DNA of 64,000 nucleotides from Koleobacter methoxysyntrophicus. GTDB lineage: Bacteria > Bacillota > Thermosediminibacteria > Koleobacterales > Koleobacteraceae. Location: NCBI RefSeq assembly GCF_017301615.1, contig NZ_CP059066.1, positions 868,001-932,000 on the forward strand, written 5' to 3'. The notes below the pieces were generated by a model. That model did no database searches and had not been told where the DNA came from. It worked only from the letters and a program-made list of their open reading frames with translations. The position numbers and the translations under genes were made by a program. Each line of letters begins with the position of its first letter. Position 1 is the stretch's first letter. Shown in pieces: positions 22,801 through 63,283 of the stretch.

Positions 22801-22918
22801 CTCTTATCAAGAGCGGTGGAGGGACTGGCCCGATGAAACCCGGCAACCGGCACATATTGTGCGTCTGGTGCTAATTCCTGCAAAACCCATTTGGGTTTTG
22901 AAAGATAAGGGGAGTCGG
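22801..22918 (+). promoter_or_regulatory. SAM-I (S-box) riboswitch
   Basis: The S-box core is readable: CTTATCAAGAG opening the P1/P2 region, GGTGGAGGGACTGGCCC, GATGAAACCCGGCAACC, and the closing strand AAAGATAAGGGG that pairs with CTTATC. A terminator hairpin follows at 22937. Binding of SAM would favour termination ahead of metF, the activation-domain gene and metH. Confidence 0.95.
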
Positions 22919-26967: not shown

Positions 26968-26970
26968 AAC

Positions 26971-27010
26971 AAAAAGCAGGCAAGGCGAAATCTGCCCTGG
27001 CCTGCTTTTT
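26971..27010. terminator. Bidirectional terminator after metH
   Basis: AAAAAGCAGGC (26971-26981) pairs with GCCTGCTTTTT (27000-27010). T-runs lie on both strands, so it serves metH on the plus strand and the small selenoprotein gene on the minus strand. Confidence 0.88.
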
Positions 27011-27024
27011 ATACTCAGGTTTTT

Positions 27025-27309
27025 TTAATCCCTGATTCCCTCTAATGCAAGATACTTAAACATCCCAAAACCCCTTAATTTAACCGTGATACCTTCAGGT
27101 GCCACTTTTAAGTCCCTAGCAACATATACCTTTATGCCATCCGCTTCTACCTCATGGTAATCTTCGGTACTTTTCGGTTCACCTGCAAGCACGGCAGGTT
27201 TATAAACGGGGCCGCATCACCCACCACCTACATTTGTCATTTTAATCGTTACCACATCGGTCTTCTGGGTTATAAATTCCTTTGCGTTTTCTTCAAAGCT
27301 TACCTGCAT
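27025..27309 (-). CDS. HesB-like short selenoprotein with Sec-Cys motif
   Basis: Reading through one in-frame TGA (27217-27219) gives a 94-residue protein that starts MQVSFEENAKEFI and ends GIRD. The TGA is codon 31 in the context NVGGG-Sec-CGPVYK. The frame before and after is clean, and GGAGGTG stands before the ATG. A hairpin 17 nt after the UGA (27181-27199) fits a bacterial SECIS. This matches the HesB-like group of small proteins whose tandem Cys-Cys or Sec-Cys pair follows a glycine run. The function of that group is not established. It has its own promoter (27362-27390) and terminator. grdA and grdB show that the organism decodes Sec. Confidence 0.88.
27181..27199 (-). promoter_or_regulatory. 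Candidate bacterial SECIS hairpin
   Basis: On the minus strand, ACCTGC and GCAGGT form a six-pair stem around the loop CGTGCTT, starting 17 nt after the UGA of the HesB-like gene. The spacing and a G in the second loop position match the general rule for bacterial SECIS elements. Confidence 0.6.
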
Positions 27310-27361
27310 TTAAGTTCACCTCCATCATTTACCCCTATACAGTCGGGGGGTATCTATCTAT

Positions 27362-27390
27362 AATTTAGCACAGAATTGTTTAATAGTCAA
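27362..27390 (-). promoter_or_regulatory. SigA-type promoter of the small selenoprotein gene
   Basis: Minus-strand TTGACT (27385-27390), a 17-bp spacer, then TAAATT (27362-27367). The predicted start is about 45 nt upstream of the ATG at 27309. Confidence 0.6.
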
Positions 27391-27398
27391 CTAAATTA

Positions 27399-27690
27399 CT
27401 ATAAAAGCAGAGCTGAAGCATGAAAAATGCTTAGAATCCTTTCTCTTTCGCAATTTTGTGCTGAAACTAGCGCGAAAAGTTTTTACTCTTCTATTCCTTC
27501 AAGCCTTGATAATTCTATGTTTCAAAATTCATGCTTCACTTCTGCTATAAAAGCAGAGCTGAAGCACGAAAATGTTAAAATCCCTTTAGCTTTCACGATT
27601 TCATACAGAAAATTCATACAGAAAATAGTGCGAAAAGTTTTTATATTACTCTTCCTACAGAATATATTCCAGCGTGTCTATCGGAATATA
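27399..27690. repeat. Degenerate tandem repeat of about 146 bp, two copies
   Basis: A 22-bp block beginning CTATAAAAGCAGAGCTGAAG is identical at 27399-27420 and 27545-27566. Downstream in each copy come similar stretches, including GCGAAAAGTTTTTA at about 27471 and 27631. The end of copy 1 (27530-27544) is also a near inverted match to its start, and AAGCAT/ATGCTT near 27416-27432 can form a hairpin. No gene is supported in 27310-27744. It could be a decayed mobile element or a duplicated non-coding segment. Confidence 0.65.
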
Positions 27691-57666: not shown

Positions 57667-58974
57667 TTAATCTTCAAAAACGGTCTGCCCTTCCACTTCC
57701 GTCTGGAGGGCCTTGAGAGCTTTTAATACCAGTTTTCTCCTCAACTCCTTCTCATCCTTCGGTGAGAGCTGCGGATTTCCTAAAGGATGCGGAATTGCTA
57801 CCGCAGGGACTATCCTGTTGGCTCCAACGGTGAGTGAAATGGGCACTATTGTGCAGACATGGACAACCGGAATCCCTGCCCTCTCGATTTCTTTTACCAT
57901 TGTTGCACCGCAACGAGTACAGGTGCCTCAGGTGGAGGTTAGGATAACTGCCTGAACACCATCCTTAACGAGTTCTTTGGAGAAATCTGCTGCGAATTTC
58001 TTTGCATTAGCAACAGAAGTTCCATTCCCAACTGTTGCATAGTAATAGTTGTGCAGGCTTCCTATCATCCCTTCTTCTTCCAGTTCCCTCATTACATCAA
58101 CGGGAAGAACCCTGTCAGGGTCCTGGTTTGCATAAACGGGGTCATAACCTCCATGAGCCGTTTCAAAGGCATCCGGTGTAAGGTCCTTTACCCCTGTTAT
58201 ATCATATTTGCCGTATTTCGATGCACTGGAAGCCTCTATCTTGTCGGGATTGGTTTTGGGTACTATACCCCCGGAAGTAACAAGAGCCACCTTAGCTTTG
58301 CTTATATCCTTTACCGGAGGATTTGGCGGCACCCTGTCGAAGTTCGGCATAGGGTACTCCGTAGCAAAGTGTTCACCCTTCAACTTGGCCACAAGCATAT
58401 CTACAGCCCTTTTAGAACCGGGAATCTGATGGAAGAAATTCTTCCTTATGCCCCTCGGGATATATCCTTCTTCTTCCGGTGAGCCGATCTCTTTGCCTTT
58501 GGCAAGCTTTAATGCCAGTTTGGCCATTACGGGAATGGCTCTCCTCATCCCTGCTGCAGAATCGGAGGTTTCAACAATATATATGTCCTTTTTATACAGC
58601 TCCACTCCCGGGTTTTCCGGGAACATCCCCGTTACTGCGGGTATCTTTAATTCTTCGGAGACCTTTTTTGCAACAGTTCCGCATGCCATACCGTACCTTC
58701 CTGCATTAAAGGCCGGACCGGCCACTACTATATCAGGATTATACTTCTTTATCAGTTCCAATACTTCCCCGGCGGCAGCTTCAATGTTTTCATTGAAATA
58801 GGAATCACCGCATATCACCGTTCCTACTATCTGCCCTTCTCCGCTGAAGGCAGCCTCTAATGCTATACCCGGGCCTACCTTCCCGTCCCGGGCCTCAGGC
58901 CTGATACCCGCTTTTTCTTCGCCGCCTATCTGCCCGAAGAATTGATTAAGGTAATGGACAACCTTTATAGTCAT
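57667..58974 (-). CDS. grdB: Glycine reductase protein B gamma subunit (selenoprotein)
   Basis: Reading through TGA at 57928-57930 gives a 435-residue selenoprotein. Sec is residue 349 in ILTSTUGTCTRCGATMV, the UxxCxxC motif of GrdB. The N-terminal part VVHYLNQFFGQIGGEEKAG and DIVVAGPAFNAGRYGMACG are family features. With GrdE it forms the substrate-specific component that binds glycine as a Schiff base and hands an activated carboxymethyl group to GrdA. A hairpin GCACC/GGTGC 4 nt after the UGA may act as SECIS. Sarcosine or betaine forms (GrdF/GrdH) are related, but the glycine riboswitch favours glycine. Confidence 0.95.
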
Positions 58975-58992: not shown

Positions 58993-59457
58993 TTAATACT
59001 TGCTGTACTGTTCCCTGTACTTCTTAACCTCATTGATGATATCATCCACATCCAGGACCATTTCCATCATTGCCACCTGTTCATCATATACATCCGGGTC
59101 TATTTCTTCTTTTATTTCAGGTTCAAAGATATGATATACCCTGAGCCCTAACTGGACTCCCGCCAGTGGACCTGCAAAAGACGGATCACCGTTGGTTACC
59201 GTTTCCGCTGCCAGGCCTGATGATTCCGCTTCAGCCCCACCTAAAACAACCACTACATTTTCAGGCCCGTACTTTTCAGAAAGCTCCTTTACCCTCTTTT
59301 GGTTTTCCAGGTCCATGGCCCCTGCTGCCGTTCAGACGAAACATTCAGTTGTAGTATAGACCGGAACTGCCTCCGTAGTTTTTATGCATTCTTCAATGGC
59401 AGGCCCCGGTATACCATCACGGTCACCTATAATAATTACCTTTTTGCCTTTCAGCAT
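58993..59457 (-). CDS. grdA: Glycine reductase selenoprotein A
   Basis: A 154-residue selenoprotein with TGA at 59332-59334 as Sec 42 in [16 protein letters not shown], the invariant GrdA motif. AAGGAGG lies ten bases before the ATG at 59457, giving the start [15 protein letters not shown]. GrdA accepts the carboxymethyl group from protein B as a selenoether and passes it on to protein C; thioredoxin reduces it. CAGG/CCTG shortly after the UGA could be the SECIS stem. It lies between grdE and grdB. Confidence 0.96.
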
Positions 59458-63035: not shown

Positions 63036-63093
63036 AACAAAAAGACAGAGATTATTATCATCGGCAAATAATCTGCCGATAATAATCTCTGTC
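63036..63093 (-). terminator. Expression-platform terminator of the glycine riboswitch
   Basis: On the minus strand GACAGAGATTATTAT..CGGCA pairs with TGCCG..ATAATAATCTCTGTC in a very long stem, followed by TTTTTG. Its first arm starts at the end of the second aptamer, so ligand binding can compete with hairpin formation and let grdX be read. Confidence 0.88.
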
Positions 63094-63283
63094 CGCTGAC
63101 CTGAGAGATTCTTCCCTAAAAAAGGGAATTACTCCTTCGGTGCTGCCTGTACCGGCAGCTCTCCAGAGCACCGTCGTGATGCGATCCTTTTGCCTGAGAG
63201 TTTCTCCGCAAACCGGCCATTTTGCAGATTACCCCTTCGGCGCCCTTAGAAGGGTCTCTCTCGCACCCTTCATCCGATTTTAT
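63090..63283 (-). promoter_or_regulatory. Tandem glycine riboswitch
   Basis: Two glycine aptamers on the minus strand. The first has GGATGAAGGGTGCGAGAGAG, CGCCGAAGGGG and AAACTCTCAGGCAAAAGGA. The second has GAGAGCTGCCGG, GCACCGAAGGAG and AATCTCTCAGGTCAGCGG-type closing sequence. The order and linker are typical. It stands ahead of grdX and supports glycine as the substrate of the operon. Confidence 0.95.

Follow-up and report, generated by a model that had tools for sequence, protein, structure and literature searches.

Small selenoproteins of the NCBIfam family NF041239 ("CC/Se motif family (seleno)protein"), predicted in Moorella thermoacetica, have already been catalogued with the motif CxxU and one selenocysteine (Sec; Table 1 of PMC13188914), without an assigned function. 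HesB-like selenoproteins (TIGR01911 and NF038090) have a predicted IscA/HesB fold, a Sec near the first Cys position, and the motif UxGP. The A-type Fe-S carriers IscA, SufA, and ErpA (PF01521) have three ligand Cys residues, including a C-terminal pair. We analyzed a 64,000-nucleotide stretch of the Koleobacter methoxysyntrophicus genome (contig NZ_CP059066.1, positions 868,001 to 932,000; here, the window), in which a sequence-only reading had proposed a small Sec-Cys selenoprotein encoded by a 94-codon frame with one TGA at codon 31. This frame is present, on the minus strand, which that reading had left unspecified. Its product resembles NF041239 proteins in whole-length match (94.3 bits against a cut-off of 40; model positions 1 to 90 of 91), length, Sec position, and possession of its own SECIS element. 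As judged by comparative sequence analysis, it is a genuine selenoprotein of this catalogued small family; because the family is already listed, the gene is new and its kind is not. The features discussed below are as follows.

27025..27309, minus strand: coding sequence of the CC/Se motif selenoprotein (94 codons, including one for Sec, plus TAA; translation, NF041239 match of 94.3 bits)
27217..27219, minus strand: in-frame UGA at codon 31 (predicted Sec31), followed by Cys32 (sequence and alignments)
27181..27199, minus strand: SECIS hairpin with a 6-bp stem (ACCUGC/GCAGGU) and loop CGUGCUU (loop G 25 nt past the UGA)
27319..27323, minus strand: Shine-Dalgarno element GGAGG (sequence; most homologues have the same element)
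27362..27390, minus strand: promoter-like site TTGACT-N17-TAAATT, with TG before the second hexamer (consensus match only)
26969..27012, minus strand: terminator hairpin (-25.6 kcal/mol, z -5.6)
58993..59457, minus strand: GrdA, glycine reductase selenoprotein A (Sec42, CFVU)
57667..58974, minus strand: GrdB, glycine reductase selenoprotein B (Sec349, UxxCxxC)

The predicted protein is MQVSFEENAKEFITQKTDVVTIKMTNVGGG-Sec-CGPVYKPAVLAGEPKSTEDYHEVEADGIKVYVARDLKVAPEGITVKLRGFGMFKYLALEGIRD, followed by TAA (27309 to 27025 on the minus strand), and the UGA lies in the context GGG-Sec-Cys-GP (i.e., the motif UCGP). Translation table 11 gives no minus-strand open reading frame of 60 or more residues at this position, yielding just a spurious 69-residue frame on the plus strand; a Sec-blind gene caller would therefore miss the gene, as had been anticipated. 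The ribosome-binding, promoter, and terminator signals claimed from the sequence are likewise present: GGAGG lies 9 nt upstream of the ATG, the promoter-like site agrees with 9 of 12 consensus positions and carries the TG extension (a consensus match only), and the strong hairpin after the gene, which separates it from a convergent metH-like gene, is probably a bidirectional terminator. Since about 435 nt separate the gene from queD upstream, it is probably monocistronic. Immediately 5' of it lies a MITE-like repeat of about 140 bp (27395-27660), which contains both inverted and direct repeats and recurs genome-wide in at least eight partial copies. The window also contains a SAM riboswitch (22801-22911, plus strand) upstream of metF/metH genes and a tandem glycine riboswitch (63087-63273, minus strand) within the glycine reductase region.

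Of 61 related genomes, 26 contain a match to NF041239. At the UGA position, most homologues have Sec and a few have Cys (one or the other in nearly all), and the homologues run through this position rather than ending at the TGA, the outcome that the sequence-only reading had named as decisive against it. In an alignment of 22 sequences the Sec/Cys column is invariant, and this first chalcogen and Pro38 are the sole invariant positions. The neighboring Cys varies: U-C in the window protein, U-x-x-C in Thermosediminibacter-type genomes, and C-x-x-U at two loci (L011 and L023), with no second chalcogen near Sec in some members (e.g., L088, L091, L103, and L104). Thus, whereas the family was described with CxxU and one Sec, the window gene has UCGP and the members found here also include UxxC, U-only, CC, and Sec-Sec forms. 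A contig scan with the window protein alone as the query found no relative, and a plasmid collection yielded one distant CC/Se homologue and no Sec-Sec match. CC/Se genes are duplicated in tandem in one genome (G002, L105:191-978, minus strand), and in another (G069, L136:6037-6590, minus strand) a UGA-bearing copy adjoins a Cys-Cys copy. The earlier assignment to a HesB-like group with a Cys-Cys or Sec-Cys pair holds for the fold (see below) but not for the classical HesB-like families: although UCGP fits their UxGP motif, the window protein scored 21.5 bits against a cut-off of 85 for NF038090, and TIGR01911 was not reported for it at E values up to 1. The precise family is NF041239.

Homology, selection, the SECIS element, and the decoding machinery agree, as independent lines of sequence evidence, that the UGA at codon 31 is decoded as Sec. 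Purifying selection acts equally on the codons before and after the UGA in comparisons of the window genome (G000) and two relatives (G002 and G003), with pN of about 0.2 to 0.3 and pS of about 0.6 to 0.8; for the G000/G002 pair, pN was 0.24 and 0.27 and pS was 0.76 and 0.65 on the two sides. The hairpin ACCUGC-CGUGCUU-GCAGGU, about 17 to 36 nt downstream of the UGA, has the features of a SECIS element, lying directly downstream with a G early in its loop. Folding of this single sequence did no better than chance (z -0.26), and all six of its pairs would arise in 15% of synonymous-codon draws. Because z-scores of single sequences were unremarkable, the comparison of minimum free energy with shuffles was dropped as SECIS evidence, and covariation and synonymous-codon shuffling were used as controls instead. 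Across 24 homologous hairpins, 95.8% of cells are paired and 13 cells are double changed, versus 2.2 in shuffles; this covariation exceeded that of all 500 shuffles, which ignore relatedness, and of all slid registers. Full stems occur in 21 of 25 genes, versus 4.4 expected under synonymous shuffling. The pattern CCURC-CGUGnnn-GYAGG recurs at a constant distance from the UGA in nearly every Sec member, and the Cys homologues, inspected by eye, are without it. The SECIS-like hairpin that had been recognized at the right distance is thus conserved and covarying, if unremarkable by energy in the window itself.

The genome carries a selD-selA-selB operon (SelB, 403 bits) and tRNA-Sec (79 bits), and its SelD itself contains Sec; all four components that the sequence-only reading had proposed to confirm (selABCD) are therefore present. 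Its expectation of Sec machinery from Grd selenoproteins in the window is borne out, since GrdA and GrdB were both found (with an Rfam SECIS_4 match inside GrdB at 57890-57927) and support Sec decoding in this genome. Among the 26 genomes of the class, presence of the NF041239 gene goes with presence of selA (Fisher p = 9e-5, relatedness ignored). The sole UGA-bearing member without a selA match (G008, L119:5955-6227, minus strand) is a frameshifted, decayed CC/Se copy, apparently a remnant of natural decay following loss of the Sec trait. Overall, the essentials of the earlier reading are supported.

The window genome also encodes a paralogue with an in-frame TGATGA (G000:C1:1682844-1683131, plus strand; locus L033:1845-2132), which reads MKAKIDSQWLLNYIKDHGGIINIATRITIRG-Sec-Sec-TAFYAPSGQMGKPEN... 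Searches of the class, of a 398-genome phylum set, and, in one scan, of 84,980 species genomes identified 22 distinct genes of this type in 21 genomes of Bacillota and Chloroflexota (loci L033, L034-L043, L084, and L141-L155; the paralogue's alignment used a second scan). Hosts include Fervidicola ferrireducens, Thermovorax subterraneus, Thermosediminibacter litoriperuensis, Alkaliphilus peptidifermentans, and Anaerolineae MAGs. All 22 keep the UGA-UGA; Cys forms were absent from the results even though CC codons fit the scan patterns. The Sec-Sec genes form one side of a branch with 100/99 support (from few columns, the clade branch being long). They have their own hairpin, CCCCRUC-A-GGUY-U-GAYGGG, with covariation at five pairs and full stems in 19 of 22 genes, versus 0.43 expected under synonymous shuffling; its loop G lies 25 nt from the end of the first UGA, the spacing also seen in the single-UGA family, and 22 nt from that of the second. 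We rejected the reading of a leader peptide that ends in a tandem stop: the two sides of the UGA pair are under equal selection, the frame aligns through it to single-Sec homologues, and the dedicated SECIS is accompanied by SelB in all 10 genomes checked (nine over the cut-off and one in pieces). These observations suggest that the sister clade probably makes a Sec-Sec (i.e., vicinal diselenol) protein in which one SECIS hairpin would decode two consecutive UGA codons. NCBIfam labels these proteins solely as NF041239, some of them under the cut-off, and a 2026 review gives NF041239 one Sec and includes no family with a Sec-Sec pair (PMC13188914). A literature search for adjacent Sec residues found no bacterial case, and the branch is apparently undescribed.

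An AlphaFold model of the window protein (22-row alignment; pLDDT 95.5) had SufA and IscA as its best PDB matches in Foldseek (E about 1e-4, probability 1.0, TM up to 0.64). A profile alignment with the A-type carrier AQ_1857 (E 2.9), used solely to set the register, matched Sec31 to the first Cys of that protein. The protein is thus predicted with confidence to adopt the IscA/SufA (HesB-like) fold, with Sec at the first IscA Cys position.

The gene neighborhoods of single-Sec members differ among lineages. In the window genome and in G002 and G003, its two nearest relatives with conserved synteny, queD, pth, rplY, prs, and glmU precede the gene, and in G000 and G003 metH/metF lie convergent to it; these neighbors are uninformative on redox or metals. 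Members from the remaining two families of the class face an HTH regulator gene convergently. Many Thermosediminibacter-type genomes carry a thioredoxin gene, znuABC, and a Fur-type regulator within about 4 kb. Among less related genomes, a thioredoxin gene directly adjoins the CC/Se gene in G038 (with a 7-nt overlap) and G207, and a thioredoxin-fused flavoprotein reductase is encoded next to it in G072; its neighbors encode a secreted thioredoxin and a DsbD-type protein in G066 and, in G174, a disulfide reductase fused to a rhodanese. This recurrence of thioredoxin-type partners in unrelated neighborhoods led us to propose a thioredoxin-linked role.

Taken together, the window gene very likely encodes a 94-residue NF041239 protein with a predicted IscA/HesB fold and a selenocysteine at residue 31, whose insertion at the UGA would be carried out by SelB and tRNA-Sec under the direction of the downstream hairpin. 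The likeliest function, offered tentatively, is that of a reactive, thioredoxin-maintained selenolate which passes on a soft electrophile. The single selenolate would sit at the position of the first Fe-S ligand of IscA in the predicted fold, would be kept reduced by the thioredoxin system, and would capture and hand on sulfane sulfur or the ion of a soft metal or metalloid. The nearby Cys (at +1 here, at +3 or -3 elsewhere, and absent in some members) may act as a resolving residue or second ligand where present; since a resolving Cys is not conserved across members, a single common redox chemistry is not assured. The vicinal diselenol of the Sec-Sec clade could act as a chelator of As(III) or of some other soft ion.

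The Sec-Sec genes often lie near arsenic-resistance or tungsten aldehyde-oxidoreductase genes. At most Thermosediminibacter-type loci (L127-L134) the gene is downstream of ferredoxin and aldehyde ferredoxin oxidoreductase genes, with a Fe-only-hydrogenase-like protein also encoded nearby, and one genome (G005) has two separate oxidoreductase-linked copies. One locus (L142, 3367-7499) has the order arsD-arsA-rhodanese-[Sec-Sec gene]-regulator-arsM, and ArsA, ArsP (permease), or ArsR-type genes occur near the Sec-Sec gene at five others (L152, L153, L154, L146, and L155). The arsenic-gene regions delimited at these loci are as follows.

L152:5586-10420: arsenic-gene region at the Sec-Sec gene
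L154:3561-5303: arsenic-gene region at the Sec-Sec gene
L146:4145-5981: arsenic-gene region at the Sec-Sec gene
L155:6320-8938: arsenic-gene region at the Sec-Sec gene

An ArsE-type thioredoxin is encoded near the gene at L146, an aldehyde oxidoreductase at L144 and L146, and a tungsten-oxidoreductase radical SAM maturase-like protein (below the cut-off) beside it at L155. The neighbors in G000 and G069 are of neither the arsenic nor the oxidoreductase type. These associations hint at a metal(loid)-handling role for the Sec-Sec clade, for which tandem UGA decoding is much better supported than any role. The likeness to the arsenite metallochaperone ArsD is by analogy only (i.e., a vicinal chalcogen pair and, at one locus, the same operon); ArsD (PF06953) is a different family encoded by a separate gene in that shared operon, and As binding by the Sec-Sec paralogue is only hypothetical. 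In the window genome, a gene of the C-GCAxxG-C-C family (TIGR01909; L125:7208-7729, minus strand) is convergent with and just downstream of the paralogue. Near the Sec-Sec gene, L141:4984-5478 (minus strand) and L154:6274-6876 (plus strand) encode proteins weakly related, below the cut-off, to the DF family (seleno)protein NF049942, which was named recently.

Such neighbors bear on the possibility, which we regard as appreciable if doubtful, that NF041239 proteins serve mainly as a soft metal or metalloid ligand (a chaperone or buffer) rather than in redox, with Sec31 and Cys32, or Sec-Sec in the paralogue, binding Zn, Cu, or As(III). This would account for the proximity of znuABC and a Fur-type regulator to the gene in several genera, as well as in the more distant G038, and for the arsD, arsA, arsM, arsP, or ArsR-type genes near the Sec-Sec paralogue at six loci; it fits less well with thioredoxin-type partners adjoining the gene in several unrelated lineages and with members that have no second ligand. 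It is unlikely that the window protein is a working A-type Fe-S cluster carrier (IscA, SufA, or ErpA) with Sec replacing the first Cys. The predicted fold is the same and the genome itself yields no PF01521 match, but the window protein has no Cys after residue 32, and the two C-terminal ligand Cys residues (the CGC pair of Fe-S carriers) are consequently missing; it scored 15 bits against the PF01521 gathering cut-off of 26.3 and fell far below the cut-offs of the SufA, IscA, and ErpA models. Membership among the carriers thus fails despite the common fold, and we dropped the normal IscA reading on account of the absent pair. Also improbable is a selenium or sulfur carrier that feeds SelD or cofactor assembly through a selenolate-borne persulfide or selenosulfide: rhodanese-type and disulfide-reductase neighbors occur in some genomes, but no linkage to selD or selA was seen at any locus inspected, and a selenoprotein required for selenoprotein synthesis would need a Cys form or a bypass. 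Finally, an ordinary stop at the UGA, leaving a 30-residue peptide or a pseudogene, would agree with the short frames of a Sec-blind reading and the unexceptional hairpin energy but is extremely improbable given equal selection on either side, Cys homologues that continue through the position, the conserved SECIS, the complete Sec machinery, and clear decay solely where selA is missing.

The window gene is a further securely supported member of a catalogued, uncharacterized selenoprotein family, and NF041239 gains a predicted fold, an argument from the lost ligands that it does not carry Fe-S clusters, and its first genomic leads (thioredoxin and zinc uptake). The Sec-Sec clade would matter more than the window gene itself. 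In Escherichia coli, a single UGA is recoded at only 30 to 40% (PMC4513850). If true, natural UGA-UGA decoding with one SECIS would probe the re-loading of SelB after one translocation, and a genetically encoded vicinal diselenol beside arsenic genes would be a directly testable soft-metalloid site.
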